Source of the DNA: Papaver somniferum
Lineage: Eukaryota > Streptophyta > Magnoliopsida > Ranunculales > Papaveraceae
Direction of reading: 5' to 3'
Length of the DNA: 64,000 nucleotides
Assembly (NCBI RefSeq): GCF_003573695.1
Contig: NC_039360.1
Location: 121,172,336 to 121,236,335 of the forward strand
The notes under the pieces are model-generated. The model did no database searches. It worked only from the letters and a program-made list of their open reading frames with translations, and was not told the origin of the DNA. Made by a program: the position numbers and the translations under genes. Position 1 is the stretch's first letter; each line of letters opens with the position of its first letter. Positions 9,185-47,734 of this stretch are shown here, piece after piece.

Positions 9185-10810
9185 TTACCTGAATGTGCAT
9201 GTACTTACTTTGGAGCTTGAGAATTTCCTCTTTTCGGCAGTTGGTAGAAATACTTCATTTTCGTCAACCGTGGAAGGTTTTGGTTGAGAAGAATCTTTAG
9301 CTCTGACAAATTTTACCTCTTTGCAAATACCAGGAGCGTCTATTCCTTTATAGCCCAATCCTCGTGTATCACGATGAATTCTACATGCTCCCAATATTGA
9401 GGTTAATTTATCTGAGCTGTTATTTCTAGACAAACTCTCTTTTAATTAAGCTCGAGTTTTCTTCTTCCAACCTTTTGACCTTTTCAAGAGCAATAACTAG
9501 ATCATTCTTGGATGATTCACATTGAACTTTGAGATCTTCTCGTTCTGAATCAAATGACAAGTTCATCTCAATGTTCTCCAAGTTATCTAGCTTTGCTTAA
9601 AGAATAATTTCCCGATCTCGGCTTCCGGAAATTTCTTCTTTAAGCTTCTGTATTTCGTTGAGATAATCTCTTACACCAATAGAATCAAGTTGGTCTTGCA
9701 AATCTTTATTCCGACTACGAAGTCTGTCATATTTAACTTTCTCACTGAAAATGGTGCTTTCAGCTTCCGAGAGTTTCTGATGACATTCCTTAAGAAGATT
9801 ATTAGCAACTAGATTTACGTGGAACACTTCTTCGTCAGAATCAGAATCAGTATCCGAAAGAATTTTTCCAGAAGCTAATGCAACCTCGCCTGCGTACTCT
9901 TGGTAATCATAATATTCATGTCCATCATCAAGAGTAGGCAAAGCTGCTGCATATGCAGATTGTCTATGGCTCCAGCTAGGGCAATCCGAAGAAAATTGCC
10001 CGAAACCGCGACAGTTAAAGCATTGTACATCATCATTAGGATATGTTGTAACTTTAGAAAAACTCATTTTCATATTTCTCAAGAGTTTTCTAAATTTTCG
10101 TGGAGTAACATCCTTAGTATCTGGCAAACCAGATTTATCCTTAGAGGATTCAGAATTGTCTGCAGCTTTAAGAGAAATAACCTCTTTTCCAGACCGGTGT
10201 TCATTATCAAAGATCTTTAACTTTCCAACAAGAGTATTTCTGGAGAGTGTAGAAAGATCGTTTGCTTCTTCAATGGCATGTTTCTTAGACTCGTATCTTG
10301 ATGGTAGATACCTGAGAATTTTGCACACATTAACTTTCTCCGGAATAGTTCTTCCTAACGAATTTGAGAAAGTCTTTAGTTAAACTCATCAAAGGTTTCA
10401 TCATCATACATGCGAAGGTTTTCCCAGTCATATGATAGGTTTTGAAGCTTTGCTTCTTTCTCTGCGGCATTCCCTTCAAATACGGTTTCTAAGATATCCC
10501 ATGCGTCTTTAGACTTATTGCACGTGGTCACGTGGTGCTGAAGATCTGGGGTAATTGCATGGATGATAGCATTTCATCCATCAGAATTTTTCTTTGCAGC
10601 AAGAATCTCAAGATCATCGTAATCACCAATATCCTTTGCAACAGTTACACCGTCTACTGTAACTAATGGAGGATTATAGCCATTAACAATATCAACCCGT
10701 GATTGACAATCTCGCGCTTGAATAAAAGCACGCATAGCAATTTTCCACCATAAATAGTTCGTTCCATCGAGGGCTGGCGGTACGTGTATAGAGATAACAC
10801 TTCTGTCCAT
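9185..10810 (-). pseudogene. Gag of SIRE-like copia element A (5' half), broken
   Basis: The reading starts at about 10810, shortly after the primer site, with MDRSVISIHVPPALDGTNYL, the usual start of SIRE/UBN2-type copia Gag. A stop lies at about 10574 and more stops or frameshifts follow around 10380, after which the frame at 9597-10328 continues. That frame has a zinc knuckle (CFNCRGFGQFSSDC), an acidic DTDSDSDEE stretch and a coiled coil. Beyond a stop at 9597 the text resumes with LGACRIHRDTRGLGYKG and VKFVRAKDSS, the SIRE spacer that normally precedes the second zinc-knuckle-like linker. That linker is absent here and is found at 41515-41910 on the other strand. The protein would package element RNA, but several stops show it is dead. 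Confidence 0.8.
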
Positions 10811-10862
10811 AACAATCAGATTGCTTCAAACACGGACTTATAAGGTCTTAGCGTGTTTGCCT

Positions 10863-10874
10863 GCTCTGATACCA
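10863..10874 (-). other. Primer binding site of element A (initiator tRNA-Met)
   Basis: On the minus strand TGGTATCAGAGC lies three bases after the LTR end. It is the standard plant copia primer site, complementary to the initiator methionine tRNA. It fixes the strand of element A's 5' half and identifies the neighbouring LTR as the 5' LTR. Confidence 0.9.
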
Positions 10875-10876
10875 TT

Positions 10877-12950
10877 TGAAAAAGCGAGGGTTTAACAACC
10901 ACACCCAATATTTCGTTTGGAAATTTGTATGGACTAAACCTCAATAATATTCCGAGAGAGAAAACTCAATCAAAGAATAATACTAAAGAGTTTATCTCTA
11001 TTTCTCAAATCAATCAGCAAATCAAACAAATAGAAATCTATGAGCCTAATTGATGTGATAAATACTTGGGCGGTACCAAAGACCAATATCCAAGATCAAT
11101 CAAAATCATATCCAACAAACAAGGTCGGATTTATCAATAATGATTGATTAACGCACAACCTGTGATATTTCAATTATAAAGATAAACAATAAAATGCGGA
11201 AAAGAAATAACACAGACACCATAAATTTTGTTAACGAGGAAACTGCAAATGCAGAAAAACCCCGGGACCTAGTCCAGAATAAACACACACCGATTATAAG
11301 ATGTTTTACCAATTTTCTACTACCTATTCGGACTAGATGTAATACCTGCTTCAGCTGTTTTCAAGCACTTGTAAAACTCCTAGCAGAACATCATTTCTCT
11401 TTAGAAGTTATTCTCAAAATCTGCTGGCTGAACAGAGTTCTCTATTCTCTTCAGAAGCACTCTCAAAAATCTTCTAGCAGAATGTTAGTTCTCTTTAGAA
11501 GATGCAACAACACGTTGATACCTTTTGATTTTTTTTTTTCACAAAACACCGGTTTGATTTCCCTTTAGCTGTGAATCAAGGTTTTGGAAATCTTGTGTTT
11601 GTTTTGATAAAAACAATTACTAGGTAAAAATAATATCAAAACAAACTTGGTAATTAGGGCTTATTACACTCTTCAAAAATAGGAAGAGAAACCTAATGAT
11701 TCTACAACAAGAACGACTAGAATAAATCTAAAGATATCTTGTTTAAAACTTCTTAAGGATTTTTACGAGATACCTTAACCAAAGTTTTCTTTCTAGCTTC
11801 CGATTTCGACTAACAAGTGTTGGTATACGATCGGAAACTGAAACCCATCAAAACCTAGGGTTTATGATCAACAACTCTTGAATGGTTTTATACCAGAAGA
11901 GAAAACCTTAGAATAGACAAGAGGTGAAAAACCTAGATTACAAGTTGTATAATCATTCACAAACATTAAATCAAACTCGACTTTGTGATCCTTAATACAA
12001 AGAATTTTATCTCACTCTTGTTCACGAAGAACAAAAGACATGGAAAACAACCTTATGAAGCTTACACCAATTTTCCAAAGGGGATGAAAAACATGTAGCA
12101 CTCACGAACCCTTTATTTATAGTGAACAATAGCTTGGAAGCTAAGCAAAGCAATTTTCCTTTTTCAAGACTCTCCTAATTTTGGGAGTCTTTCCTAAGTT
12201 ACAACTCTTGCCAAAATAATTAAATAAATAATTAATTTAGCAAATATCGTATATATGTGAGTAAATTACAATTTATCTTAGGAAGGAATCACAAACACTT
12301 TAATATGGTAATCAAATATGTTTGGAGTAATAGTTATCTTGCCTAGATAAGGAAACATCAAAAACTTGACCAAAAATGTCTTCTAGTCACGTAATTGTTC
12401 TCAAGTCCGTGAACCGTTACAAACAGTTCGTGGATTGTTTCCTACTAACGTACGAACTGTAACAATTACAACAACACTTATAATTGTTACTTTAATAAAT
12501 CACTCATAGCTTCATCGTTATAACTCAGAATTAATTGATTCTTGGCTCGTTGAATTCTTAAGATCATTCACTATAGCATGAGAACCTTTCCAGGGATAAA
12601 GGTTATTGTCACAAAATTCGTGGCTCAAATAACCTCGAATATATATACGAAAATGTATATTTACCGTCATAGGAATTGTTTCATAGAGTGAATATTTGTT
12701 TTGATAGATTATAAAGGTATAATTGAAAAAGAATCCAAATGGAATCAATTACCACATACCTTTTTTGATGAAGTCCTTGTTGATGTCTTCTTGTAGTCTT
12801 CAAACTTCATCCTTCAAGGATAGCTTCGATTCTACTCCTTAGACTTAATCTAGTCCGAAACCATCTTTAGTATACTAAATCAAGAATGCATTTTGGCAAC
12901 TAAACTTGACATACCAACGCTAGTGGGTTCAACCGAGCAATGCTCTAACA
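10877..12950 (-). mobile_element. 5' LTR of SIRE-like element A
   Basis: On the minus strand it starts TGTTAGAGCATTGCTCGG at 12950 and ends CGCTTTTTCA at 10877, giving 2074 bp with TG..CA ends. It is followed by the primer site. The same LTR, in the opposite orientation, is at 52617-54692. The two are close in length and share blocks throughout, for example the GTCCGTGAACCGTTAC-like stretch and the CTATAAATAAAGGGTTCGTG promoter-like block. The flanking five bases at 12951-12955 read GACTT on the minus strand. TATA-like TATAAATAAA near 12115 (minus) is a plausible promoter. Confidence 0.85.
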
Positions 12951-14436
12951 AAGTCGTTAACCTACAGGGATTTGGAAAAAACCTAAGGTTAAAGGTGAAT
13001 CGACTCTAGTCGCAAATAGTATCACACATGAGGTGTGGGGATTAGGTTTCCCAGTTGCTAGAGTTCTCCCTTATATAGTCTTCAAATCAGGGTTTGCAGT
13101 CAATGTTAATTACCTTGGTAACAAAGCATTCAATATTCACCGTCATATGAATACCTGATTAGACTCAAGCTAATATCTTTCAACCGTTAGATCGAACTTA
13201 GCTTGTTACACACAAATTAAAAGTGACTTCATTTAGATATTAGTAACCGTACCTAAACATGTACACCTTGTTGGCTCAACAATAGTTAACCGAAGTTAGC
13301 CATATGAACACTTTCATATCAACCTTATTAATCTTAACCATAACTAGTTCAAAGACTCAAATGAAACTAGTTCTAGAGTTGTTCAATTGTTTGTATTCTC
13401 ATAGAAGTATACAAGACACAATTGAAGCAAAATCGATTTCGATTCACTCGAACCAATTCATGAACATTATAGCCATGGTTTGGAAAACATTGCATTGCTT
13501 AATATATAAATGTATTAGTTCATGAAAAAACCGATGTTAGAACATACCTACTCAAGTATGCAAACGGGTACGCATGCCTAAGTGGCCGGACTTAGTTTGG
13601 GTTCCCCAGTATGCGAACGGGTACGCATACCTCCAAACTCAGTTGAATTTCCGGACATGAACTTTACGCCAGTACGCATACGGGTATGCATACTAAGTTC
13701 CCGGACTTTCATTAAACCAACCAGTACGCGTACGGGTACGCATGCTATGGTTCCCGGACTTGGAATAACATGCAACAGTTAGCATACAAGTACACATATT
13801 GTGTTATATCTAATCATGGTTAATTGTTCTAAATTCCCATTTCAATCATTGAAACATTCTTAGAAGACGACAATAGCTGTCTCACACAAACTATTAGCTT
13901 CAAAGCAATTTTCAAGTGATCGAATGATCTATACGAAACATTCCGAATCTACATCAAATGACTATCTCACACAAATCATGTAAGATGTTACCAGGCAATT
14001 TTCACATGATCGTCTTTTGACTTTCGTCAAGAATACAAGATGAACTTGGTTAAAACGAAAGCTTGCCAACACATATTTCTAGAAATATGTAAGCGAGTTA
14101 AACTCATCTCGAAATATCAAATGTATATAATTGAAGTCTATATAGCTATACGACTTTTGTCTCAAATAGGATATAGAGTAGATAGACTTTTGAGTGATAG
14201 ATGAGTTCAAGTCTCCACATACCTTTTGTTGATGAAGTTCCACAAGCTCCCCTTAGTAGTTCTTCGTCTTCAATCGATGAACGTCGTGAATTCTAATGCT
14301 CAACTACACTTATTATCCTAATTCGAGACTTAACTATAAGTGGACTAGAAATCAAGACTTATAGTTTTGGCAACTAAACTTGACAACAAGCTTGAGATAC
14401 CAACGCTTGCGAGTTCGACTGAGCAGTGCTCTAACA
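12951..14436 (-). mobile_element. LTR-B, 5' portion (interrupted by element A)
   Basis: On the minus strand it starts TGTTAGAGCACTGCTCAG at 14436 and runs to ..GTTAACGACTT at 12951, where element A begins. The missing remainder of an LTR-B, starting GACTTGAAGACTTCATTGGG, is at 54693-55708 on the plus strand, directly after element A's other LTR. Together the two pieces give an LTR of about 2.5 kb. The start resembles LTR-A, so A and B are related SIRE-like families. Confidence 0.8.
13557..13765. repeat. Self-complementary GTACGCATACGGGTACGCA motif array in LTR-B
   Basis: Four units of about 55-60 bp each carry a palindrome-like GTACGC(A/G)TACGGGTACGCATNC motif and a CCGGACTT tail. Equivalent motifs occur at 51190-51395. 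The corresponding position of the copy at 1-1926 (about 180-315) has GTCCGCGAACTT-type motifs instead. Short frames read through the array on both strands, but this comes from the palindromes and is not coding. Confidence 0.7.
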
Positions 14437-14944
14437 AGTTGATAGCTAGAGTTCTCATTTATTGACCTAGGTTTCCTCCGAGAAACATAATTAGGTCTAC
14501 GACTAAAAGACTCCGCTTTGGGGATTCGTGAATCCAGGTACGACTATCTTTACCTTGAAAGTTCGTGTATCCTGATCTTGCTTTTATGTTATCGAGGTAA
14601 CTCGTAATCTCTTTCAGCCAAGATAGATAGTAATCGCAAAGTTTTCTTCGTCTCAGACTTTATGAATCTTGAAGATAGATATCTGAAAACTATTCTTAAT
14701 TGATAAGTTTAAGATTATTCTTGAGAGGTGGTAAAAAAAACCAGGCTTCTCATCTAAGTGAATGTAAGTGTTTCAGATTTTTGAGGTTTGCTAGCTTTGT
14801 CTATTGCAAAAAGATATCCAAGTGTTGGTCTTTGATGTAGTTTTTACATTGATAAAAGGTTCGTTTGAATACTTGTAAAGATTCGATTTCAGACTTAATA
14901 ATAGGAAAATATATACAAAAGATTATAGCAATATCGAGAGATAC
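14437..14944 (+). mobile_element. Fragment of another SIRE-like LTR
   Basis: It has the style of the SIRE LTR 3' half (ATCCTGATCTTGCTTTTATG, then a TCGTCTCAGACTTT block and TCCAAGTGTTGGTCTTTGAT). Its left end abuts LTR-B and its right end abuts the gypsy sequence starting near 14945. It resembles the end of the LTR at 60238-61897, which also runs straight into the same gypsy sequence. No coding content. Confidence 0.5.
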
Positions 14945-18388: not shown

Positions 18389-21150
<2,762 letters not shown>

Positions 21151-21277: not shown

Positions 21278-22112
21278 GAAGGCTATTATTGGGGGCGTCA
21301 AACTCCAATAGAGGGGCTTCACTTCGATTCTTAATATCCAAAAAAATGATTATGGGATATCCTAACACATATACAAAATGTGTAGATTACCTTTTAATTA
21401 GAACTGATTTTACGTTCAGGTTTGGATTAATTCCAACTGTAAAATTTTATTTACATGTAATTTTACGTCCAGGTTTGGATTAGTTCCAACCGTAGAAGCT
21501 CATTTTACGTCCAGGTTTCTTTTAATTCCAATCGTAGAATCCGATTTTACGTCCAGTTTTCTTTTAATTCTAACGGTAGAAGTGATTTTACGTCCAGGTT
21601 TGGAGATTTTACGTCCAGGTTTGGATTAATTCCAACCGTAGAATTTTATTTGCATGTAGTTTTACGTCCAGGTTTGAATTATTTCCAACCGTAGAAGCTC
21701 ATTTTACGTCCAGGTTCCTTTTAATTCCAACCGTAGAATATGATTTTATGTCCAGTTTTCTTTTAACTCCAACCGTAGAAGTGATTTTACGTCCAGGTTT
21801 GGATTATTTCCAACCGTAAAAGTGATTTTACGTTCAGGTTTGGATTATTTCCAACCTAGAAGTTTATTTTACGACCAGTTTTTCTTCCCACAAAAACTTT
21901 GTCCCACAATTGACCAAGTATACAACAAAATTCATTAATTTAATTTTTATCTGATTAAATTAAATTAAATTAAAATTAACTAAATAAGAGTTGTTTAGTC
22001 ATTACAAAATTATTTAAGATAAGGGGTTTTTGATATTACTTACGGGTGACCCGTTTTTGTCCTATTAGGTGACGCCCCTCTAATGGAATGTGGCGCCCCA
22101 ATAATAGCCTTC
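21278..22112. mobile_element. TIR element (835 bp) filled with a tandem array, at the MSI promoter
   Basis: The left end GAAGGCTATTATTGGGGGCG at 21278 and the reverse complement of the right end, GAAGGCTATTATTGGGGCGC, pair over about 20 bp. They continue with gaps through the CCAATAGAGGGGC block, to about 45 bp. Flanks TAAATAGTG (21270-21278) and TAAATAATG (22113-22121) look like an imperfect 9-bp target duplication, as in Mutator-like elements, but they overlap the TIR by one base. There is no transposase. Most of the interior is the array at 21408-21890. Confidence 0.6.
21408..21890. repeat. ~41-bp tandem array, about 12 units, with higher-order repeat
   Basis: Units start TTTTACGTCCAGG(TTTGG or TTTCTTTT) and end TTCCAACCGTAGAA, with a period near 41 bp. 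A longer pattern (unit ending ATTTTATTT.CATGTA, unit ending GAAGCTCA, a CTTTTAATTCC unit, a GTTTTCTTTTAA unit ending AGTGA) occurs once at about 21408-21585 and again at about 21606-21784, so about 200 bp was duplicated as a block. Each unit carries ACGT, the core of plant bZIP sites. Confidence 0.8.
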
Positions 22113-24259: not shown

Positions 24260-24362
24260 CAATATGTTATAGACTGTTTGACAAGCTCAATCTTTGTTAA
24301 AAGAAATCTCCCATGGATGGCTCTAGCCAGGGAAGATGCATCGACCTCGATGTCATATTTTT
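24260..24362 (-). pseudogene. Possible captured exon, unidentified
   Basis: Minus-strand reading YDIEVDASSLARAIHGRFLL continues in frame with TKIELVKQ before a stop. The composition looks protein-like against an AT-rich, stop-rich background, but I do not recognise the family. No certain splice sites. It may be another host fragment carried by element H. Confidence 0.25.
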
Positions 24363-24539
24363 GATCATAATCATAGCATGTGTACAATTATGTACACGTT
24401 AACAATTAACATGTGTACAACTATGTATACATTAGCAATCAACAAGTACACCACTATGCACACATTAAGATGCCCCTACAACTACTAGTACAACCGTTGT
24501 CACGGTAGGAGGGCCGACCGAAGAAGAATCTGAAGATGG

Positions 24540-24760
24540 TATTTGTCTCCGACTACTTTCGTCCCGTTTCAGAAAAAGTGATACTTTCGCTCCGCTTCAG
24601 AAAACGTGATACTTTCGCCGCGTTTCAGAAAAAGTGATACTTTCGCTCGAAAATATCACTTTTTCTGAAACAGAGCGAAAGTATCACTTTTTCTGAAATA
24701 GAATGAAAGTATCACTTTTCCTGAAACGGAATGTGAAAGTATCACTTTTCCAGAAACGAA
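24540..24760. repeat. Palindromic array of TTTCAGAAAAAGTGATACTT units
   Basis: Three direct copies of a ~28-bp unit built on TTTCAGAAAAAGTGATACTT, then CGCTCCG (24570-24650), are followed by about four copies in reverse orientation (AAGTATCACTTTTTCTGAAA, 24655-24755). The unit is the well-known end sequence of plant MITEs of the CTCCCTCCGTTTCA type, and GGAGGGAGTA, a matching terminus, occurs near 24892. The locus could fold into a hairpin with about 90-base arms. Confidence 0.7.
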
Positions 24761-25705: not shown

Positions 25706-26549
25706 TGTGGATGGGGAAAAATGAGTCGCCGGTTTTTCGGGAAAGTGGAGAGTCGAGCGTGCTGTCGAGACTCCTCAGCCAGGCAAAATGTTAATCCTCA
25801 CACAGATGCACCGCTGCAAATGGGTGCTTAGAATCGGGAAATCAATCTGTATGACTCCGGCCTAAACCAAGACAATGGCCGTTCCAGAGTCAATTCGGTC
25901 GCAAATAGGGAGATGGGTTGATCTGTAGGAGGGAAGCTGAGAATTGTGTGGGATCAGTGATGATCGAGGATTGTGGGTGTGTTGAAGGTTTCTGCAATAA
26001 TGGTGATCTGATGAGTTCTAATAAGTTCTGATGAATTGATGAATTCCTGAGAGTGATAGCTCGAGAAATTCTACGTAGACCAGAGTCTGTCCGTTCAGTC
26101 ATGGTTTCAGAGACTTATTTATATTGTCAGAGTCGTGAACACCTTGATCCCTGTAAGTGTGACGGTTTCTTGAGTGAAAGAGTGGGAAAGTGGGAGATCG
26201 TGGTAAAGTCAGTTCCATGTCGTGTGGAGACTTCTGATCGTGCACCCACTACTTTGCTAACTCCTTCAACCGTTTACACGACTTACACACATTTCTCGTT
26301 GTGGATGAATCCACGTGTCGTAGACCGCAAGACCAAAACCCTATGTGATATCCCCCCATTTGTGACGTGATTGATGTCTCACAAGTCTTGGAGTCTGCAG
26401 GGAAGACGTGTTTTGATTAGTCAATTATTGACAATGAGTCTGAGTTTCGTTGAATCGAGCATGAATGATGAATTCTCAGCGATTCACGGGTTGAACATGT
26501 AGTTCTCTAAAGGGATGTCAGTATTGTTGATTCACTGATGAATTATTGA

Positions 26550-26765
26550 CGAGCGACTGAGCAAGTATTGCTCAATTCTGCGAATTACTGAATATTGAGG
26601 ATTTGATGAGCAACTGAGCAAGCATTGCTCAATTCACCAAATTAGTGATTTTTGATAGTCTGTCGTGCAACTGAGCTAGTATTGCTCAATTCTACAAATT
26701 ACTGATGAGTTGTTGAATATTGATCAATATTCGAGCAATTGAGCAAGTATTGCTCGATTTGGCGA
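26550..26765. repeat. Four ~58-bp units with GAGCAA..TTGCTC stem in D's 3' LTR
   Basis: Each unit carries (C/G)GAGCAA(C/T)TGAGCAAGTATTGCTCAATT or a close variant, in which TGAGCAA and TTGCTCA pair around a GTA loop. The same array is at about 37960-38180 in the 5' LTR. Confidence 0.75.
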
Positions 26766-28469
26766 ATTATTTACTGGTGACGTGACCCAATAAAATATTA
26801 ATTAAAATATTAGTAGATTACCGAATATTGCATAATTAACTTTTATGATGATTGGTGGATCAACATAAATTTATTAGTGTTTGAAATTGCTCAGAATGAT
26901 GGTTTCACAGAGCGTTTATTTGAAACCCTAATTTTTGATCAATCCTCCATCAATTGGAGAATTATTGAAAATTAGTCATGAATGAAGAGGGACCGACCAC
27001 ATGGGATTATGAATGCCCATGTGATGCCATTGTTCGAGTGAGCATGCACCAGGGTTCTCAATTTGAGAGTTGGTGAAAGAATGATGATTAAATGGTGGTT
27101 TCACCATTTACTGAAAATATTCATGGATTCATCACTAGGTGGTAAAACCTAAGTATGAGAGATGGGACCGACCAAGGGGCATGGGATCGGCACTTGGTGG
27201 TCACGGGACCAGTTGTTGGTCATTCGGAGAATCCCCAGTTGGTTGGAGAAAGTTCGGGCCCAGTATGAGCAATTGAGCAAATTAGGTCAGAATAATGAAA
27301 ACATGTGGGACCGGCTTTGTGCAAGCCCTAGGAATGACTCTGGTCGGTCATGAAGGCGTGCACGTGTTTCCATGGTGTCCGTGTCTCCATACTGAGAGTT
27401 TCAGTATTTTCTGATGTGCGTTCGAGCAACATCGTGAATTTTCAGAAGAGTTTCATCTTGACTGAGAATTCTCGATTTTTGTTGGAATGAGCATGTATGC
27501 TCAATTCATCAATATTTTGAAAATATTAAAATAAAAGTGTTTTAATATTTAAAATTACCGTGAGAGGCTAGCCAGTCGTGTGACCATGTTAGCTTTTGGT
27601 TTTTCGTGATTCGAGCAATATTTGAGAAAATATGAAGAAATCATGAATTTCGCTCAAACCCAGGAGTTTCACGAGTTGAGAAAAATAATAATTATGAAAG
27701 ATTAGGGATTGCAAGGTGTGGGACCGGATAAGGCTAGGGCATGGCCGGACGACCATGTTGCCCGGTCCCGCACACCTTTTCCTATTTTATACTATTAGTT
27801 TTTTCGTGAATCTTTGAAGTTATGGAGAATCCTTGAAGATATATGGAGAAACCATGAGTTTTTGTTGAAACGGAGGAGTTTCGTGAGATTGGGAATAATA
27901 ATTATAAAAAGCTAAGGATTGTGAGGTGTGGGACCGGCCATGGGCATGGCCGGCCGGCTACGTTGCCCAGTCCCGCACACCTTTCCTTATTTTATAATAT
28001 TATTTGGTGAATCCACCATGTCATGGAGAATCCACAAGTTTTGCACAAAATAAGGAATTTTGCTAAGATGGAGAAACCTTCATGAGTTTATGAAAATAAA
28101 ATAAGGAAAAATAATGGAGGAAGCATGGGACCGGCCACAGCTAGGGCATGGCCGGCCCCGGCCATTGGGCGCTTCTCCATTATTTTATTATTATTTTATT
28201 TCTCCTATTTTTGTGTAGGATTCCTCATTATTTCATGTTTTTGGACGCTCGTTCGTGCATCCGGGTGCTCAGTCGTGCATCATTGTCGAGTACATTCGCA
28301 CCATTTTTGTGGGGCTTACTTAGTGATGGTCCATATGCCTGATTGCTGAATATTTATTACTAATTTATGAAATTCAGTGGAGAATAGTTCATGAAACTGA
28401 GTAATAAAAAATGAATAATTGTTCATTATTAATTCATAGAATCAGCTATGGATTTGACTACGAATTCAG

Positions 28470-28780
28470 AATAATAAAATGAGCATTACCACCCTATGGG
28501 ATCGTGGATTCGACCATAAAATCTAAGTAATTAAAATTATCCATTACCATTTCATGAGATCAGTGAATTCGATCATGAAATCGGAGTAATGAGATAACAC
28601 AGTTGTGTTTTATTGCCATTCTATGAGATCAAGCCGTGGATTCGATCATAGAATCGGAGCAATTGTTATTGCCATTCCATGGGATCAGACCATGGATTCG
28701 ACCATGTAATAGGAGCAATGTTATTGCCATTCCATGGGATCAGGTCGTGGATTCGACCATGGAATAGGAGCAATGATAGA
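28470..28780. repeat. Six ~50-bp palindromic units in D's 3' LTR
   Basis: Units of the form TTGCCATTCCATGGGATCAG, a (G/A)CC(G/A)TGGATTCGACCATGG arm, then AATAGGAGCAATG repeat about six times with the arms drifting in step (CTATGAGATC with GATCATAG, CATGAGATC with GATCATG). Paired changes keep each unit self-complementary. The second LTR has the same array at about 39870-40165. Confidence 0.75.
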
Positions 28781-29313
28781 TTATTCTGGGAATTCAGTAG
28801 TGAATGTCACGACAGAAGTAATATATTTCAGAAAAGATATTAGCCAGTTAAAGCGTCAAATCCATTCTGAATGGTGCACAGTCAGGTAGCCACGACGTTG
28901 TATACGACCTGAAGGCGTTAGTGTTCTCAATCTACGGAGAACCGCCTGAATCTATGCACTCTCTCCACATAATCATGGAACGGTGAGTGTTACCGTCGTC
29001 TTGAAGGCGTCCGCCGCCCAACTATTCTTCTATGTGGAGGTGGGTCTCTCTCCTGCAGTCAAGGAACAGTGAGTATCACCGACGTCCTGAAGGAGTTTAA
29101 GTTCTCAATCTACGGAGAACCGCCCAAATACGTTATTCTGCATAGAGGGCACGACGAAATGCCAGAGATCGAACGCTCAGCTAGTGAAGGCTTTTCGAAA
29201 ACATATTCGTCATGGCTTCGTAAAATATGAACCGTTGCATGCTTGAAAGCCGTGTCAAAAACATGCCTCATGATTTTACGGTTTTTCCCTTAGTTGAAAA
29301 TCCACCATCTACA

Positions 29314-30747
29314 TTAAGTCCTATGCTTAGCGAGGAACAGTCATGTTCTGCAGTATGCATTAAATGGTGATTTTCAGTCGACGAAATCAGTGGTTGAACT
29401 CAGTGTACAAAGGTAGTTTCAGAATCCTCGATTTACCCCAATGGTGTCATGTATGAGCAAATGCACAAATGAGGATCCTGATAGTGAGGTGGAGTGTCAT
29501 CTGAGCGTGGAGAGATGAAGCACTGCTGATTTGGACATTTGGAAGTTTAGTTATGGTCGGTTTAGGATTTGCAGGCCCGAGCCCAAAAAGGAAACCCATG
29601 TTTTATTAGGTTTTTGAGATAAATTTGATATAAAAGGGAAGAAGCCCTAAAAAAAAATTTATTGACCGACCAGCACTCCCTTTCTTCATCACCCTCACGA
29701 GTTCAGCAGCAGCAGGAAAAGTTCACGTCAGCCCCGTCGACGTCCGATCACCGTCGGGCAGAATTCCGGCCTGCGCCGGCAGGTTAGTCCGTGCGATTTT
29801 TTTTTTTTTGCTGTAAGTTTTATGATTCATGAGTTGTTCACAAAACCAAAAATCCCATGGTTGTGTGCACGCGTAGGATTTATGAAGGATTTTTAGAAAA
29901 CGTACGAATATACCCGTTTGTCCGTTAGTTGAAGGAACGAGCTAAAATCCCTAATATGGAAGAGACACATAAAATTTTGAATAGACATGGTCTAGTTGCA
30001 ATAGTAAAACTTTTGTTTACTAGGTATCATGAAAACCCAAGTTTGTGTTTTGAAAGTATGAACCTTGCAAATACTTTTGAGAACGTAGGTTTATTCGTAA
30101 AGTAATGAATAATAATCCTTAGAGTTAGAGTTAGAGGAATTTTTTAAAAGGCCTGGAGTTCATAATAAAAATTTGTTGAGAACTCTCGAAATTTTATTTG
30201 GACTTCACAAAAATAGGAAAGACCCTCGTTTCATAGATGAATGCTCGATTGGGCAAAAAGTTTTTTTTTTACGTGAGTTGTTAACTCACAAAAAAATTAT
30301 TTATTTACGTGAGTTCATTAACTTACGATTTTTTTTTATGCGCGTGACTTATTCACATCTTATTAAATAGAAATCGAGTTTTGAGAACACGCAATTTATG
30401 AATTGGTGAATTCACAGTGTATGTGTGAATCCAGTGATTTTATAGAGTATGTACACGTAAAAATCAGCGAGTGCCCACATAGAGGGTTATGTGAATTACT
30501 CATAGTTTCTCGAAAAGTCAGCGTTGACTCTTGAATAATATGTTTTATGCTCGATTTTGAAGGTTTGATAGAACGAGCAAATTTGGGGTTTTACGTTGCT
30601 ATCACTAAGTTCGGGAAATCGTAAATAAGTAAGAGTTGAGGATTACCATTTTGGTAGACGTCAATATGAGCATCATAATTGTCTCGTTGCTTTAATTCTA
30701 TTTTGTTGATGAAATTCGTGTATGAATGTCACAACAACTTTGCAGAG
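29314..30747 (+). other. Non-coding stretch between D's 3' LTR and antisense gene
   Basis: It begins with an imperfect inverted copy of the LTR edge (the AATCCACCATCTACATTAA side and CATTAAATGGTGATTTTCAG pair around 29300-29385). It continues with TATAAAAGGGAAGAAGCCCT near 29631, a good TATA box and start region for the plus-strand gene, then a CAGCAGCAG-containing leader near 29706 and a probable leader intron ending TTTGCAG at about 30745. No polypurine tract was recognised next to the LTR. Small frames are not genes. Confidence 0.5.
29631..29640 (+). promoter_or_regulatory. Candidate TATA box of D's antisense gene
   Basis: TATAAAAGGG lies about 1.1 kb upstream of the ATG at 30748 on the same strand. 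It is followed by a leader-like stretch with CT- and CAGCAG-rich sequence near 29680-29720 and a plausible first intron ending at 30745. Promoter activity is inferred from this context only. Confidence 0.4.
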
Positions 30748-33700
30748 ATGACTCAGTCCCATAGCGTTTCTGAAGATGATGTTTCCTCTAGAGAGGATGT
30801 TTCCACAGACGCATCTTCCAGAGATGATGGTTCCTCCAGAAATGATGATTCTGAGATTTCTAAGGAGAAAGAAGAGAGCCCCAGGACTAAGAACATTCCA
30901 ACTGTTGAGGACAAATTCTTTGTGTATCTGTATAGACCTGAAAAGCGTCCCTTATGCTCCTCATTTCGGTCGCTGATAAATCCCAGGAGCACTACTCAGA
31001 ATAAGTTGGTATCTCCTCAAGCAGTAATTCGATTTTGTTTGCAAGGTAAACACTTCTCGGCTTCTCATGTGGAGTTTAAGCTTTCACGAAAACCTCTGAC
31101 GCATTTCTCTGGATGGGCAAGACACATGTTGGGTCATAGCCGTGTGAGGACCGTGTTGGATCGTGCTCAGGTGACACGAGCCATTCAAGCTGCTGGAGAT
31201 TTGATCATCAATCATGATATACCAGGTATGGTAGTTTTGCTCGCCCGTTGGTGTGTTCCTACTCACGCGTTCATATGCAGATGGGGAGAATTTACTATTA
31301 CTTTAGAGGATGTATCTACTTTGTTGCACCTTCCAATTACCGGTAATTTTTCTTAAGAGCTTTCAGCGGAGGAGAAAGAGATATCTAATGTATTGGAGGC
31401 CAAGATGCACGAATTAAATGAGTCACCCATATCCTTCTATGCTCAATAGTTATCGCATTGGTGGCCGAGAGATAAAATTCTTGAAGAACCGGTTGATGGA
31501 ACTTTAACAATTGCTGTTTTCTTATGTCTGTGGCTATTCAGGGATATCCTTGAAGACTGTGGACACTTGCTGAAGCCGTTTGTGATTCTCTTTGCCATAA
31601 AGATGGCCAAAGGTGAGAAAATTCCCATTGGAAGTCTATTCTTGGGTTCATTGTTCGCCAATTTAGACTCTTTAGTTATAGACTCCAGTATTTCTGACGG
31701 CTTCATGAAAGTCGAGACATATGCCAATACCATGTTCCTCCTAGCCTTGATGTGGGAGCATCTTGAGAGTTATGCCTCCATTCCCCGTAGTATCTTGTAA
31801 GGTCCCAAGGTCGACACTCGTCATGCCTTCCTTGAGAAGAACAATGCTATGATCATGCGCTGGTCTATAAAGAAGCCTCAATATAAGATATGCATTACTG
31901 ACGTTTTAGATATTGAATCCGAGTTCAAATTTCGCCCCTGGGTGTCGGTTCCTTATCTCTTCTCACAGCTGATCACTTTTAATACTGCTGAAGAGAATAT
32001 CACGTTGAGTACTGGTGCTGGTCTGAACGAAGGAGAGAGATCTTTTGTGTTGAGTCGTACTGCTGGTTTCTTGATATCAATAATGAATGAAGAATTCCAG
32101 GTAGAAGAATACAACATTGATAGAGCAGCTAGACAGATGGATCTTGATCAGTGTATTCCGGGTCATCGGACAAATAAGCCAGAGATTGAGTACCTGAAGG
32201 CTCACTTAGACTGCACACGTGTGGAAGGAAGCGATTATTTGTTTCCATGTTCTGACCGAGATACTTTCATAACCCCTGGTGACATAGACTTTTGGCGTCA
32301 TCAACTTGAGCGTGTGTACCAGTTTGCAATTGATGTTCAGTCCCCAGTTCGAGAATTCCCTTCCTATGACATGATTTCTTATCAACCCAGGCTGAGATAC
32401 CTTTCCAGTGGCGACAAGAGGAAAACGTCTCCAAGTGCGACACAGGTAAATCCCTTTTTTGCGATTTCAGCCAAAGTATGTCAATCACACTTTTAATTGT
32501 ATTGTTGACCTTGTGATAGGATGGTCGTTCTGTGAGACCTCGAATTGATGTAAACTCTCCAAACCTTCAAGAAAGTCCTCAAGGAGGAGAAGACAGGAGC
32601 AGGGCATCTCATAGGATGATACCGAACAATATACAATCCCCTGTCGCTTCTTTGGTGAGTTGTTAGCGCCTTCTTTGCCATTGTGACTTTCTCGTCCATA
32701 TAATTAGGATCTTGAAATAATATTGTCACTTAGTTCCAGAATTTTTCTCCATCGGTTATTGATGGTCTTCGTTTTGCTCTTGGTCGAATAATTCAGGGAT
32801 CCGGCACTGAAGAAGTCGACGTAAGTATTCTCTTTTCGCGTTAATCATTGTAACATGCTTTTGGACGAATTAGTGATGATTGTTGTTGATATATTCAGGA
32901 GGAAATCATTGCGGACAAGCAGCATATTGATGAAGCACACTCTTCTTTGAGTCATGGAGATATGGAGAGTTCCCGAAATCCCGAACCGAATGAAGATAAC
33001 GGAGTTGCCAACGGAGATTTCAACGTTGCCGAACCTTCAAATGGTTTAGAGACTCCCCTAGTAAGTATACCTCTTGTGGCCTCTTCATAGATATATGATA
33101 TTGCTGATTTATGAATGAATGAATGAGTGAAAATTCATGTGAATATACGAGTAATTTTGCCGAAATACGTCACCAGAAAATTTCAGACTTCAGTCTTTTA
33201 GTAAAAATGCTGTAGAATCCTTGTTTGGAGTCGGATTTTCGATATCTGCATATGCATGTTCAGCCCAGGAAATTTCAAAGCTTTAGGAAAGAAGCTTTTT
33301 GACTTTTGAGCATGTTTAGGGCCTGAAAAAGGCGAAACAGTAAAGTTCCAAGAGACTTTCAGCATTTTCCCAGATTGCATGTTGCCCAATGTTTTGGCCA
33401 CATCTCTTCGCTCGTTCCTCCGATTATTATGAAATTTTTACATGTTGTAGAGGACTTCCATACGAAGAAAATGGTGTATAACTCAACTCTAGATTCATTA
33501 CCAATTTTTCCCAGTTCGTCATTGAACACAGGGCAGTGTAAACTTTTTCCAGCTGAGCTTGTTTTGAAAACGTGTTTCATAACTTCCGCACTGCTTGTGC
33601 ATGTATTAGATGCATAATAAGGAACTTAGATGATGTTATTTAACTTGCTTATTAATTTTATGGTCGTATTGGGTTTCCATGCTCGAACCATTCTAATCCC

Positions 33701-34477
33701 ATGTAATCTTCACATTAGGTGCCAAATGCCGAAGTTGGGAGTAACGGATCCAATGGTGATGGTTTGGGCAATCCTGGAGATGTCAGTGATGAGACTTCCA
33801 TCCCTGCACCTCAGGGTCATGAAGTTCTGGTTGTTGCTTCCGTGGAGGTGGCGGAAACCCCAATTGTGCCTGAGACTGTGGAATCTGAATCGAGAATGGT
33901 AGAAGCTACTCCAACTGAAGTTGTCCCCATGATTGTTGACACTGCTCTAGTAACTGAGAACCGTTTGATAGTACACGAGTATCCCAATGCATGGATTTCT
34001 TTTGATCCTCAATTTGGTGAGTTGCTCCCATATCACCAGTTTGTTGGCGGATTTAGCGTTCCCATCGGATATGCTGCCATGTACGAGAAACTGTGGGAAA
34101 TGTATGGACACATCGTTGTTACTCAGGATCCAGGACGCAGTTATTTCTTGACGAGGCAAGTAGAAGCCATCTTGCGTGTTATAAATGATATCTGGATCAC
34201 AGCCAGAAATGTTGTTACCCGAGATGTACTCTTTGATTGGGAGTACAACTTGAAGAATGCTGAAGAACTTGGCTTCAATCTGAAGTGTCTTCATCAAAAG
34301 TTTGAGGCTATCAGGAAAGCGGTAAAGGGTGATGCTCCTTTCCCCACTAGTGATGTTGTGTTGAAGAAGATGAATGAAGTTACTGAACTAACCAAGAAGC
34401 TGGAGGCGGAAAAGGCAGCCTTGAAAGTCTTGGAGGAGGCAGAGGAGCAGAAATATTTCTTTGCTGACTTCCTTTAG
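30748..34477 (+). pseudogene. Antisense five-exon plant-mobile-domain gene within element D
   Basis: Five plus-strand exons are read: 30748-32445, 32520-32654, 32734-32820, 32899-33060 and 33719-34477, all with GT..AG introns in phase 0 and lengths divisible by three. After an acidic, serine-rich start, exon 1 has the plant mobile domain: LLARWCVPTHAFICRWGEFT then LEDVSTLLHLPITG, as in MAIN/MAIL1 and transposon relatives. Exons 2-4 are low-complexity and acidic. Exon 5 carries EYPNAWISFDPQFGELLPYH and a C-terminal coiled coil (about residues TELTKKLEAEKAALKVLEEA). Exon 1 has three in-frame stops (31354, about 31447, 31798) in otherwise open text, so this copy is dead. It runs opposite to gag-pol. 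PMD proteins act in gene silencing and some are carried by transposons. Confidence 0.75.
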
Positions 34478-34746
34478 TTTTCCTTTGACAATATTCTAAG
34501 AGACGTGAGGTTTTATTGATAGGTTCTGAATTTATGAGTGGATGAGGATTTTCTTTTGGATTTTGGATTTGATAGAGATTTTCTTAAATAAAAGACTTTG
34601 ATAGATTGCTGAATTTCAAATACTGAGTGCAAGTATGCACACGTTTTGGAGGAATTGAAAAATACAAGTAAAAGAAAATCTTAAGGTGTGAACGCCAAAT
34701 ACTTTGAGTGTTTGCCTTGGATATAAAACATCCAATGTTGAATGCT

Positions 34747-35250
34747 TCATGCGTCGAAAATCTTGAGCCGATTCTCATGAATCACCAGTACACTTGTCTT
34801 GCCTTTGATGTCAGCCAATTTGTAGTATCCTCCAGCAACTGTCTTAGTAATCATAAAAGGTCCTTCCCAGTTAGAACTCTTTGTGGAGTGAAAATTGCGT
34901 CTGGTTGCCTTAAGAACCAAATCTCCTTCATGAAATTTGTTAGGATTTCTTGTACGTGCTTTGAATATCTTCTGCTGGTTTGGAATTCCTCGTGGATTTG
35001 GTGGAGCTTTCCAGTTTTGCGGCACATGTGGACACTCATGCAAAGGAGAATACTTAGGATATTGATTGTGAAATTCAGTCATTATCCTAGCAATGACCGT
35101 GTTAGTGAGATGATGAATTTGGAGGGGCTCTACATCTAACCATTTGGTGAAGTATTGCTGAGGTGAAACTAACCACTCATAGCGTTTGGTGATGGCTAGG
35201 TTTTGAGCGAGTCCCCGGATCAGAGTAGCATACTTGAAATTTGGTAACAC
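34747..35250 (-). pseudogene. Integrase C-terminal remnant of element D
   Basis: The minus-strand frame has YFTKWLDVEPLQ, a scrap of the integrase core (family YFTKW.EA.PL), then jumps to the C-terminal domain: HEGDLVLKATRRN, NWEGPFMITKTVAGGYYKL and HENRLKIF. These match the GDLVL..NWEGPY.V..V.G.GAY.L end of plant gypsy integrases. The HHCC zinc finger and most of the DDE core are missing, as are the whole reverse transcriptase and RNase H. It is therefore a deletion derivative. Confidence 0.75.
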
Positions 35251-35775
35251 CTATGCATCATGAGGAATAAGACTTGCCTGATTGCGAAACCTTCCGACAA
35301 ACTCGTTGGTGTTCTCCCCAGGTTTTTGTGCGAGCTCCATCAAGGCTTTGACTTTTCCCAAATGCTCGAAAGGTTGATCATATTCCGAGTAAGAGCTTTC
35401 TTCGACGAAGAATTGTGCAACTGAAGATGATGAAGATATCGCAGCAAATTTTCCATCATGAATCCATGCTCGCCCCAGAACCATGTCATATCCCGGATCC
35501 TCCTTAATTATGAAGAATTTAGTTTCGGTCCAGGCTGAATCATTTCTTATGTTGAGAATGATGTAACCATAAGCCTCCCTGGAGGTTCCCTCGTGATATC
35601 GGATTGAAATAGGGGCATGAGTTGCTTCTTGTTGAGTAATTGCAGCAGCTCTGAGGGTTTTCAAAGGGATTATGTTAACAACAGTGCCAACATCGATTAA
35701 TGCTCGTTTGAATTCATTTACCTTGAGATGCACTATAGTGAGAAGTACCCAATCGTACATCTCTTTGTCCGTCAC
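35251..35775 (-). pseudogene. Retroviral-type aspartic protease of element D, altered active site
   Basis: The frame reads FKRALIDVGTVVNIIPLKTL, the protease flap-side start, with D-V-G in place of the catalytic D-T/S-G. GYDMVLGRAWIHD, the usual second landmark (family YN.ILGRPWLH), is intact. The frame then continues into LMELAQKPGENTNEFVGRFRN, which looks like a piece of gag, not of pol, before it stops. It overlaps the gag frame end by a few bases. The loss of the catalytic threonine suggests an inactive enzyme, in line with the missing polymerase. Confidence 0.7.
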
Positions 35776-37000
35776 TGGCGGTCGGGGAGTGTCTCCTGAA
35801 TTGTCAGTCGTTTTCCTGACACAATATGGTTCAATGCAGCAAACGTATCATTTCTTTGAGACTTTGACAAGTACGGCAACTCGCAGACGTGCTCAATTAA
35901 GAATTGAACTGCTTCTTTGACTGGCTGCTCGGAGAGTGCAAACGTTCTGATTGGGAGAGGATTTTTGTCCACTCCTTCAGTCCCCAGTTCTCCTGAGTCG
36001 GCCTTCTCTTTGATAATGCGTTTCAAATTTCTGCAATCACTTGTTGGATGACTGACATACCTATGGAAATGACAGTAGCGTGCATTTTCCATTTGTTCCG
36101 CAGTTGGTTCCTTTTTGACAGGAGGTAGTTTGATTGCACCATCTTGGATCCAGACTTTTAATAGTTCGATCACTTCTTCAATGGGAAAATGGAAGTCAGG
36201 AACCTCTTGATCATTCTGCTGAGGTTGTGCATTTCTAGTATGGTTTTCCTTCCTTTGAGCTTTCGTAGGGTGAGACATCGGAGCAACATTCTTATGTTGC
36301 TGTGCCTAGGCTTTTCTCTTTCTCCCTTCAGCAACATTCATGGAAGTTTCAACGTTGTACTGCTTGTTGATCAGACGCCGGGAGGTGCTGCTTCGATTGT
36401 CTTTCGATTCCTCTACTTTGACAGTTTTAGTTCTTTCCAGTAAGGCCGGAGCAGTAGTCGCCGATCGCTTGGCCGCTTCATGAAGTTCTGAGAAGGTCTG
36501 GAAACGAAGATTTTCCAGCAAATCTCTGTAGACTGGGATCATCCCATTGATGCACAAGTCCACCAATTGTTGTTCAGTAACGTTGGGATCATGACAGTCC
36601 AAAGCTTGAACTTGGAACCTCTTCACATAATCATTCGGATTTTCGGCAGCTTTCTGAGCCATCCTTCCCAAGTCAGAAAGAGTAATTTTCTCAGAAACAA
36701 AGAAATACTTACTGTAGAAAGCATTAATCATTTCTCCCCAATTAGCTATGCTCCCTGGTGCAATGTTGTTGTACCAAGTATACGCTCGACCTGTCAGGGA
36801 TTTTGAAAACTCCTTCAAACTCCTTCAAACGGACAACATGGACCTTCATGAGATCGCCTATGGTAGGCGGATTTTCTCTGATTTCTTCTGGATGCCGCCC
36901 AAAGAGAGGATGATTTTCGACATTGGTGTGAGGAGGAGTAATGTCACCACCATTATTAGAAGCAGGAATGGTTTCAGGAGTACCACCACTGTTGTTGCTG
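35772..37000 (-). pseudogene. Gag of element D
   Basis: Two frames (36306-36818 and 35772-36278) carry a typical plant gypsy Gag: EFSKSLTGRAYTWYNNI, FYSKYFFVSEKITLSDLGRM, NDYVKRFQVQALDCHD and, further on, a zinc-knuckle-like CHFHRYVSHPTSDCRNLKR. Upstream, around 36830-37060, the start is eroded but shows short threonine-, alanine- and valine-rich text. The same families of motifs are in element E (56447-57686). A stop between the two frames (about 36306) breaks the protein in this copy. Confidence 0.8.
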
Positions 37001-37094
37001 GTGCTAGCGTTGTTGGTGTTGGGATTTGTAACTGAACCTGACCTAAGATCGACCCTCTTGTGAAAAAATGAGAGATTGCAACCGAGAGATTAAT

Positions 37095-37112
37095 ATCCCA
37101 CTGTGGTCGCCA
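37095..37112 (-). other. Primer binding site of element D
   Basis: TGGCGACCACAGTGGGAT on the minus strand lies three bases after the 5' LTR end. The form TGGCGACC.C..TGGGG is common in plant gypsy elements, and element E has a near-identical site (TGGAGACCACAGTGGGAG). It gives the strand of element D independently of the coding text. Confidence 0.75.
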
Positions 37113-37115
37113 ATC

Positions 37116-40100
37116 TGTGGATGGGGGAAAACGAGTCGCCGGTTTTTCGGGAAAGTGGAGAGTCGAGCGTGCTGTCAAGACTCCTCAGCCGGGCAAAATG
37201 TTAATCCTCACACAGATGCACCGCTGCAAAGAGGGTGCTTAGATTCGGGAAATCAATCTGTATGACTCCGGCCTAAACCAAGACAATGGTCGTTCCAGAG
37301 TCAATTCGGTCGCAAAGAGGGAGATGGGTTGATCTGTAGGAGGGAAGCTGAGAATTGTGTGGGATCAGTGATGATCGAGGATTGTGGGTGTGTTGAAGGT
37401 TTCTGCAATAATGGTGATATGCTGAGTTCTAATAAGTTCTGATGGATTGATGAATTCCTGAGAGTGATAGCTCGAGAAATTCTACGTAGACTAGAGTCTG
37501 TCCGTTCAGTCATGGTTTCAGAGACTTATTTATATTGTCAGAGTCGTGAACACCTTGATCCCTGTAAGTGTGACGGTTTCTTGAGTGAAAGAGTGGGAAA
37601 GTGGGAGATCGTGGTAAAGTCAGTTCCATGTCGTGTGGAGACTTCTGATCGTGCACCCACTACTTTGTTAACTCCTTCAACCGTTTACACGACTTACGCA
37701 CATTTCTCGTTGTGGATGAATCCACGTGTCGTAGACCGTAAGACCAAAACCCTACGTGATATCCCCCCATTTGTGACGTAATTGATGTCTCACAAGTCAT
37801 GGAGTCTGCAGGGAAGACGTGTTTTGATTAGTCAATTATTGACAATGAGTCTGAGTTTCGTTGAATCGAGCATGAATGATGAATACTCAGCGATTCACGG
37901 GTTGAACATGTAGTTCTCTAAAGGGATGTCAGTATTGTTGATTCACTGATGAATTATTGACGAGCGACTGAGCAAGTATTGCTCAATTATGCGAATTACT
38001 GAATATTGAGGATTTGATGAGCAACTGAGCAAGTATTGCTCAATTCACCAAATTAGTGATTTTTGATAGTCTGTCGTGCAACTGAGAAAGTATTGCTCAA
38101 TTCGACAAATTACTGATGAGTTGTTGAATATTTATCAATATTCGAGCAATTGAGCAAGTATTGCTCGATTTGGCGAATTATTTACTGGTGACGTGACCTA
38201 ATAAAATATTAATTAAAATATTGGTAGATTACCGAATATTGCATAATTAATTTTTATGCTGATTGGTGTATCAACATAAATTTATTAGTGTTTGAAATTG
38301 CTCAGAATGATGGTTTCACAAAGCGTTTATTTGAAACCCTAATTTTTGATCAATCCTCCATCAATTGGGGAATTGTTGAAAATTAGTCATGAATGAAGAG
38401 GGATCGACCACATGGATTATGAATTCCCATGTGATGCCATTGTTCGAGTGAGCACGCACCAGGGTTCTCAGTTTGAGAGTTGGTGAAAGAATGATGATTA
38501 AATGGTGGTTTCACCATTTACTGAAAATATTCATGGATTCATCACTAGGTGGTAAAAACTAAGTATGAGAGATGGGACCTACCAAGGGTCATAGGACCGG
38601 ATCTTGGTGGTCACGGGACCAGTTGTTGGTCATTCGGAGAATCCCCAGTTGGTTGGAGAAAGTTCGGGACCAGTATGAGCAATTGAGCAAATTAGGTCAG
38701 AATTATGAAAACATGTGGGACCGGCTTTGTGCAAGCCCTAGGAATGACTCTGGTTGGTCATGAAGGCATGCACGTGTTTCCATGGTGTCCTTGTCTCCAT
38801 ACTAAGGTTTCAGTATTTTCTGATGTGCGTTCGAGCAACATCGTGAATTTTCAGAAGAGTTTCATCTTGACTGAGAATTCTCGATTTTTGTTGGAATGAG
38901 CATGTATGCTCAATTCATCAATATTTTGAAAATATTAAAATAAAAGTGTTTTAATATTTAAAATTGTTGTGAGAGGCTAGACAGTCGTGTGACCATGTTA
39001 GCTTTTGGTTTTTCGTGATTCGAGCAATATTTGAGAAAATATGAAGAAATCATGAATTTTGCTCAAACCCAGGAGTTTCACGAGTTGAGAAAAATAATAA
39101 TTATGAAAGATTAGGGATTGCAAGGTGTGGGACCGGCCAAGGCTAGGGCATGGCCAGCCGACCATGTTGCCCGGTCCCGCACACCTTTTCCTATTTTATA
39201 CTATTAATTTTTTCGTGAATCTTTGAAGTTACGGAGAATCCTTGAAGATATATGGAGAATCCTTGAAGATATGGAGAATCCATGAGTTTTTGTTGAAACG
39301 GAGGATTTTTGTGAGATTGGGAATAATAATTATAAAAAGCTAAAGATTGTGAGGTGTGGGACCGGCCGGCCGGCTACGTTGCCCGGTCCGCACACCTTTC
39401 CTTATTTTATAATATTATTTGATGAATCCACCATGTCATGGAGAATTCACAAGTTTTGCACAAAATAAGGAATTTTGCTAAGATGGAGAAACCTTCATGA
39501 GTTTATGAAAATAAAATAAGAAAAAATAATGGAGAAAGCATGGGACCGGCCACGGCTAGGGCACGGCCGGACGGCCGGTGGGCCCGGTCCATGGGCGCTT
39601 CTCCATTATTTGATTATTATTTTTCTCTCCTATTTTTGTGTAGGATTCCTCATTATTTCATGTTTTTGGATGCTCGTTCGTGCGTCCGGGTGCTCAGTCG
39701 TGCATCATTGTCGAGTACACTCGCACCATTTTTGTGGGGCTTACTCAGTGATGGTCCAGATGCCCGATTGCTGAATAGTTCATGAAACTGAGTAATAAAA
39801 AAATGAATAATTGTTCATTATTAATTCATAGAATCAGCTATGGATTCGACTACGAATTCAGAATAATAAAATGAGCATTACCATCCTATGGGATCGTGGA
39901 TTCGACCATAGAATCGGAGTAATTAAAATTATCCATTACCATTTCATGAGATCAGTGGATTCGATCATGAAATCGGAGTAATGAGATAACACAGTTGTGT
40001 TTTATTGCCATTCTATGAGATTAAGCCGTGGATTCGATCATAGAATCAGAGCAATTGTTATTGCCATTCCATGGGATCAGGCCGTGGATTCGACCATGGA

Positions 40101-40705
40101 ATAGGAGCAATGTTATTGCCATTCCATGGGATCAGGTCGTGGATTCGACCATGGAATAAGATCAATGATAGATTATTCTGGGAATTCAGTAGTGAATGTC
40201 ACGGCAGAAGTAATTTATTTCAGAAAAGATATTAGCCAGTTAAAGCGTCACATCCATTCTGAATGGTGCACAGTCAGGGAGTCACGACGTTGTTTACGAC
40301 CTGAAGGCGTTAGTGTTCTCAATTTGCGGAGAACGACCTGAATCTATGCACTCTCTCCACATAATCAGGGAACGGTGAGTGTCACCGACGTCCTGAAGGC
40401 GTCCGCCGCCCAACTATTCTTCTTTGTGGAGGTGGGTCTCTCTCCTGCAGTCAGGGAATAGTGAGTATCACCGACATCCTGAAGGCGTTTAAGTTCTCAA
40501 TCTACGGAGAACCGCCCAAATACGTTATTCTGCATAGAGGGCACGACGAAATGCCAGGGATCGAACGCTCAGCTAGTGAAGGCTTTTCGAAAACATATTC
40601 GTCATGGCTTCGTAAAATATGAATCGTTGCATGCTTGAAAGCCGTGTCAAAAACATGCCTCATGATTTTACGGTTTTTCCCTTTGTTGAAAATCCACCAT
40701 CTACA
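37116..40705 (-). mobile_element. 5' LTR of element D (3590 bp)
   Basis: Second copy of the LTR at 25706-29313, with the same ends and the same internal arrays. Differences are scattered point changes and small indels, for example a duplicated GAATCCTTGAAGATATGGA stretch near 39250 and a shortened GC-rich hairpin near 39360. It is followed at 40706 by the ATAAG duplication. Confidence 0.9.
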
Positions 40706-41515
40706 ATAAGAACAGTCTTCCCACCTGCACTCACTTGATCACTTGCTTATGCAATTAATTTAAGACATCAGCCAGCAAAGCTTGGAGATTGAGGCGCACA
40801 ACCCTGAAAATTTCAACGACATTTTAAGTCAAATGACAAAATAAAGATAGAATTCAAGGCAAGCTACATGATGAAAAAAATTACTGACCTATTTAAAAAA
40901 GTAAATGAAATTCAAAATATTTGGCCAATTGGCCACCTCTTTGATGAGATAAAATTAATAAAAACACCACTTAAGCTCCATCAGAAGTACACTAAGCAAA
41001 TGATTCTTAGACAACTCAGTAACCACAAATTTTAACCGTGACTATCCAATTAAAGGATTCAAAGCAACCTATGATGTACGAAGCGAACATGTATCTACCC
41101 ACAAAAATCAATCATTTATACCTACAAAACATGCATATATTATTGAGATAACATAGTGGCGTACGACTATGTACATGCCTATAAAGATTCTAAAAAATCC
41201 ATCCACACCCAAAAATGTTAATCTAAAAAAGAAGCAAGAAGATCAAAAATGTTAATGTGTACAACTGTGTATACATTGATAATAAACAAGTGTACAATTA
41301 TGTACACATTAATCTATCTGCAAATTAATAATCAACATGCATGTGTGCAATTATGTACACATTTGAATTATTGTCGTTCCGCTTGCTATACTATTTGAAC
41401 TTTGAAACGGTGATCAACTACTCAGATAACTAAGAAATTGCAGACAGCTTCAATAAAAAATCTAAAAAATCCAACATCCACATCCAAAAATATTAATCTA
41501 AAAAAGAAGCAGGAA
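40706..41515 (-). mobile_element. Element H, portion right of element D, up to the breakpoint
   Basis: It starts with the second ATAAG and the beginning of the FF-like exon, then TGTACAC-type palindromes (41165-41370). The AAAAATCCATCCACACCCA..GAAGCAAGAAG block at 41190-41236 recurs at 41460-41515 as AAAAATCCAACATCCACATC..GAAGCAGGAAA. At about 41515 it changes abruptly to Gag text of element A. A possible further exon scrap is on the minus strand near 40760-40800 (VVRLNLQALLADVLN). Confidence 0.5.
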
Positions 41516-47706: not shown

Positions 47707-47734
47707 TCCTCTAGTGGCGAGATTTTCGCAATAT

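Follow-up and report, generated by a model that had tools for sequence, protein, structure and literature searches.

Simple inversions arise when two double-strand breaks are resolved by non-homologous end joining, and in repeat-rich plant genomes it is difficult to find inversions of tens of kilobases and to tell their direction of change. End joining has been held responsible for small rearrangements in wheat, where six indel loci with micro-homology borders (<10 bp) were attributed to it (PMC7156093); those loci are insertions and deletions, whereas the case described here is a 32-kb inversion. Inversions have been reported between two opium poppy varieties, in another region according to the accessible part of that paper, which gives no description of their breakpoints (PMC7775465). 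In Drosophila, inversions ascribed to ectopic recombination between copies of the transposon Galileo also have their breakpoints at transposons, as here, but there the copies recombine with each other, whereas the two elements broken here are unrelated (PMC2775673). Our locus resembles a simple end-joined inversion in having two clean joins, a small loss at one of them and no long repeats at its ends, and differs from the usual one in that each break lies in a different mobile element, so that other copies within a single genome reveal the order before the breaks. A search of the open-licence literature found no title or abstract on this inversion.

The window, that is, the whole 64-kb stretch of DNA analysed (C3:121172336-121236335), was compared with its own genome, an assembly of 2.715 Gb in 34,283 contigs. 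Piecewise comparison by coordinates delimited an inverted segment of 32,371 bp, 9147-41517, whose reversal mends an LTR (LTR-B), the gag of an LTR element inserted in it (element A) and a second element (Q) at once. The evidence from the LTRs, gag and Q is jointly explained by a single inversion younger than element A, a reading that the sequence comparisons support. We give a probability of roughly 90% to the history in which element A entered LTR-B and the piece 9147-41517 was then reversed through two double-strand breaks and end joining. A sequence-only reading had proposed an inversion of about 32 kb, younger than element A, with breakpoints near 9.2 and 41.5 kb; the inversion and its relative age stand, while the positions move to 9146/9147 and 41517/41518. 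The type of rearrangement is ordinary, but it is here well documented by two broken mobile elements.

Element A carries its LTRs on opposite strands. Self-comparison placed the 5' LTR at 10877-12950 on the minus strand and the 3' LTR at 52617-54692 on the plus strand, and the two copies are 93.6% identical over 2065 aligned sites (K2P 0.067). In minus-strand reading the 5' LTR has AACGACTT before it and AATGGTATCAGAGC after it; the 3' LTR, on the plus strand, has AAAGGGGGAGAT before it and GACTT after it. The outer flank of each copy, at 12951-12955 (minus) and 54693-54697 (plus), is directly readable as GACTT, as had been claimed, and on this sequence evidence both copies are one insertion with GACTT as its target duplication. 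The predicted distribution of the internal parts over the two strands was likewise confirmed. The primer site and the 5' part of gag, recognised by the primer site itself, copia-type gag matches and relatives, occupy 9147-10876 on the minus strand next to the 5' LTR, while the 3' part of gag (41518-42023), which starts inside the second zinc knuckle, and the rest of the internal region (50869-52616), with an LTR-like stretch and four AGGGGGAG polypurine tracts, lie with the 3' LTR on the plus strand. Nested in element A, outside the inverted segment, is a further LTR element, N (42024-50863; LTR K 0.040), flanked by the target duplication GGGTA (42019-42023 and 50864-50868), and its insertion site is empty in one other locus (L038).

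Several features of element A match those given for Sireviruses (SIRE-like Ty1/copia elements) in the accessible part of PMC2829016. The primer site TATCAGAGC is represented by TGGTATCAGAGC on the minus strand at 10863; a AGGGGGAG tract stands at 52607, 10 bp upstream of the 3' LTR at 52617, with further tracts at 52287, 52348 and 52387; and the AT/TG attachment site is present as GGGGGAGAT followed by TGTTAG. In contrast to the Sireviruses of that account (PMC2829016), element A appears to have no pol in the interval from gag to its 3' region. Without N, 41518-52616 leaves about 2.25 kb, too short for the usual pol; the Pfam scan there covered the open reading frame 41414-41905. The copia-type gag matches fall below the curated cut-offs (25.4 versus 27 bits and 23.1 versus 24.1 bits). 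We describe element A as a gag-bearing LTR element with Sirevirus signatures. One more copy of AGGGGGAG occurs outside element A, at 21010.

Beyond the two GACTT flanks, the sequence continues on each side into the complementary half of LTR-B, as the earlier reading had it. LTR-B starts at 14436 on the minus strand (left part, 12951-14436), breaks at GACTT and resumes at 54693 on the plus strand, where it extends to 55708 (right part, 54693-55708). When joined, the two parts align continuously through an unsplit LTR-B-like copy at 1-1926 (plus), our empty-site reference. Forty places in the genome, including the window's own, were listed for LTR-B, and eight were given as loci; in all seven that are not the window's, LTR-B runs uninterrupted across the insertion site of element A, with an overlap of 4 to 6 bp around GACTT, and the gaps present in two of them (L003 and L005) lie elsewhere in LTR-B. 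Reversal of the segment thus rejoins element A and LTR-B. The suggestion that it also rejoins an element H was not confirmed. The 5 bases outside the two LTR-B ends differ, so that no matching target duplication flanks the split LTR-B (CAACT at 14437-14441 versus GCACG at 55709-55713), and the sequence shows no polypurine tract ahead of this LTR and no primer site behind it.

Gag is divided in the same way. A query with window 9147-9700 (minus) yielded 40 places including the window's own; loci were given for 20 of these, among which the window's again counts as one. In 19 of the 19 relatives examined, the sequence corresponding to 9147 (minus) is followed, after 1 bp, by that corresponding to 41518 (plus), indicating that gag was formerly continuous; in seven of the 19 the first match ended 2 bp short and was then extended by script, and the comparison covered these 19 of the 39 other listed places. 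A separate intact partner for each half, a result that the earlier reading had named as contradicting it, was not seen; in all 19 relatives examined the halves lie within 1 bp of each other. The base between the halves is T in the relatives; the minus strand of the window also has T at 9146, which is the base of Q as well, and base 41518 is compatible with both gag and Q. The joins are therefore certain to about 1 bp each, and element A lost 0 to 1 bp. The gag split had been correctly recognised, but it does not stop at the VKFVRA spacer near 9200 and restart at 41515: the real ends are 9147, in the second zinc knuckle, and 41518.

Two other assignments near the joins were considered and dropped. 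The stretch 9147-9190, absent from the copy of Q on C9, might have been filler DNA, but 22 of the 39 other listed gag places match to base 9147 and 17 to 9149. A direct repeat (41181-41243 and 41453-41518) was tried as a gag linker; both of its units belong to Q, and other copies of Q have them too. As to the family of element A, 39 other places are 91 to 94% identical among the matches listed, and a first look gave 1821 candidates. The family looks gag-only: many of the 19 relatives (L030-L048) have, after gag, an LTR-like stretch and no evident pol within the 1.5 kb covered, and this stretch resembles the inner part of LTR-B.

The second element broken at the joins is what we take to be a repeat with gene fragments, and we call it Q. 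Its left part occupies 6765-9146 (plus), with a CYP38-like exon fragment (3rfy, E 4.5e-16; PF21329, 40.6 bits, cut-off 27) ending at about 8141; its right part begins beside the other breakpoint (40706-41517, minus) and continues beyond an inserted element, G, from 25705 to about 22260 (minus). Across the insertion site of G lies a piece whose translation is presumably PRP40C-like. Window 7900-9186, used as a query, matched a locus on C9 at 95%. This copy follows window 7681-9146 (plus, 95.2%), then 41518-40705 (minus, 95.6%), and further on 25705-25433 and 24487-22261 (minus), so that the sequences flanking the supposed inversion on its left and right adjoin each other there. The two parts are separated on C9 by 14 bp that the window lacks; a similar stretch occurs at about 41238-41263, in the other repeat unit that the window itself contains. 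The left part runs into the right part in one of the four loci compared (L010-L013, four of the eleven fetched), and the right part has the left part within 1.5 kb upstream in one of 11 other loci (L050); in both cases this is the C9 copy. The remaining copies are more distant (about 82 to 92%) and continue otherwise within 1.5 kb, and the continuity of Q is thus read from its closest copy.

The start of Q corresponds to window 6765 in its copies on C9 and C1 and to 6764 in that on C4. Just to its left, at 6700-6747, is a hairpin-like stretch with CTAGT, which may resemble a Helitron 3' end. A dispersed TGTACA-rich repeat appears at 8725-8780 (minus), 24361-24471 and 41151-41518, with a period of about 33 bp at 24377-24468, and one of the inversion breaks adjoins this motif.

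Could separate insertions or partial elements, neighbours by chance, account for the halves? Members of the LTR family are numerous, and 3194 candidates came up at the first look for LTR-B. However, the two LTR-A copies share the same 5-bp duplication, the LTR-B halves meet at one site, no more than 1 bp separates the gag halves where they meet, and a second element is broken at the same two points, which leaves chance association barely credible.

The joins themselves bear on how the inversion arose. Junction 1 (9146/9147), between the left part of Q and the 5' part of gag, and junction 2 (41517/41518), between the right part of Q and the 3' part of gag, are each ambiguous by about 1 bp, and the loss amounts to 0 to 1 bp from element A and 14 to 16 bp from Q relative to C9. 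From clean joins, the loss of about 14 bp of Q and the ambiguity of about 1 bp, we infer two double-strand breaks that were likely joined by end joining. Element A first inserted into LTR-B and made the GACTT duplication, which is still seen. Later, Q would have stood at a distance of about 32 kb, or of about 17 kb had G not yet been inserted, and the MSI gene would have lain in between, as follows from the reversal. Two double-strand breaks, at positions that can be read, would then have hit the second zinc knuckle of the gag of element A and a TGTACA-rich, AT-rich stretch of Q, and the piece would have been rejoined in reverse by non-homologous end joining. This would have turned the MSI gene together with its flank and with portions of the two broken elements, and G, inside Q, would either have turned too or have been inserted later.

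Recombination between two inverted repeats could also flip a segment, and short TGTACA-type repeats do occur in opposite orientation close to the two ends; one of them, a 19-bp inverted match (84%, E 0.85), ends exactly at 9146. Its partner, however, is 209 bp from the other join. We found no long near-identical inverted repeats within 1 kb of the ends; the best inverted similarity spans 56 bp (77%) and lies 366 and 206 bp away from the joins, and no exact inverted word common to both joins (within 30 bp) is longer than 6 bp. The joined sequences, gag and Q, have no longer match, and we reject this route as extremely improbable. Several steps, such as excision and reinsertion of the 32 kb or two overlapping inversions, would be compatible with the sequence alone, but one reversal suffices and both joins are clean, making a multistep history very unlikely.

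Alternatively, the assembler may have reversed the segment while the plant has the normal order. The region is rich in LTR elements, and the published opium poppy assembly, as far as its paper was accessible, consists of 61,801 contigs with a contig N50 of 1.74 Mb (PMC8521590). Against this, the 64-kb window contains zero N, the segment ends carry no near-identical inverted repeat that an assembler could confuse, and Q is short of 14 bp at the join compared with C9. These are arguments rather than proof, and it takes reads to exclude an inverted assembly join, but they make it unlikely, and a genuine inversion by end joining is the reading we retain.

Within the inverted segment lie an MSI1-like gene, element G, the larger portion of Q and the 5' part of element A. 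The gene, whose position inside the inversion agrees with the earlier reading, was located by tblastn at 21168-18392 (minus), and its label depends on the MSI1 protein used as the query. Upstream of it, 21406-21882 is a tandem array of about 41-bp units with a 199-bp higher-order unit, and 24554-24757 holds a palindromic pair of 28-bp arrays. G is an LTR element within Q (25706-40705; target duplication ATAAG; LTR K 0.0345), and its insertion site is empty in 10 of the 11 Q loci examined and absent from view in the other (L056). It contains a plant mobile domain (PF10536, 30679-31353, plus; 43.5 bits, cut-off 34.9) on the strand opposite to its gag (36309-36824).

A twin of the MSI locus is present on C2007, where an MSI copy is 99% identical over one exon. 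C2007:12287509-12296000 follows window 22246-12859 (minus) at 92.7 to 97%, with gaps at 22115-21281 and 17632-17431, and comprises MSI, the left part of LTR-B and, up to its start, LTR-A inserted in LTR-B at the same base. Element A thus inserted before the C3 and C2007 loci parted. The divergence of its LTRs (0.067) is not above that of the left part of LTR-B between the loci (0.076 ± 0.0075), and the errors allow such an order. K2P between C2007 and the window is 0.026 for MSI and its 3' flank and 0.0615 between genes, so that MSI and its 3' flank differ far less than the rest of the twin (0.06-0.08). No Q was found beside MSI on C2007 within 6.6 kb upstream; further upstream are stretches like window 58362-59166 (91%) and 60238-61766 (78%).

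All dates given here use 8.08e-9 per site per year and not 1.3e-8. The rate used is a synonymous one published for Papaver, as read in the accessible part of PMC8521590, and dates of transposable elements are therefore rough. With it, element A is 4.1 ± 0.4 My old, G 2.1 My and N 2.5 My; neither G nor N extends across a join, and they give no relative order. Between the window and the C9 copy of Q, K is 0.045, 0.034 and 0.044 over three stretches, which corresponds to about 2.1 to 2.8 My. Because Q is intact on C9, the inversion postdates the separation of these two copies, and the distances would put its age below about 2.1 to 2.8 My. It would nominally also be younger than the split from P. 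setigerum, given as 4.9 My in the same source (PMC8521590).

Two broken mobile elements yield the cut points near base level, the direction and an upper age of the inversion, all from one assembly, and opposite-strand LTR pairs whose target duplications match, once compared with other copies, could serve to count and date small inversions genome-wide. We tentatively suggest that the inversion is recent and confined to the opium poppy lineage, younger than the split from P. setigerum and perhaps variable among accessions, and that it marks the C3 copy of MSI off from its C2007 twin. If so, the MSI genes on C3 and C2007 would differ in both their surroundings and their orientation.
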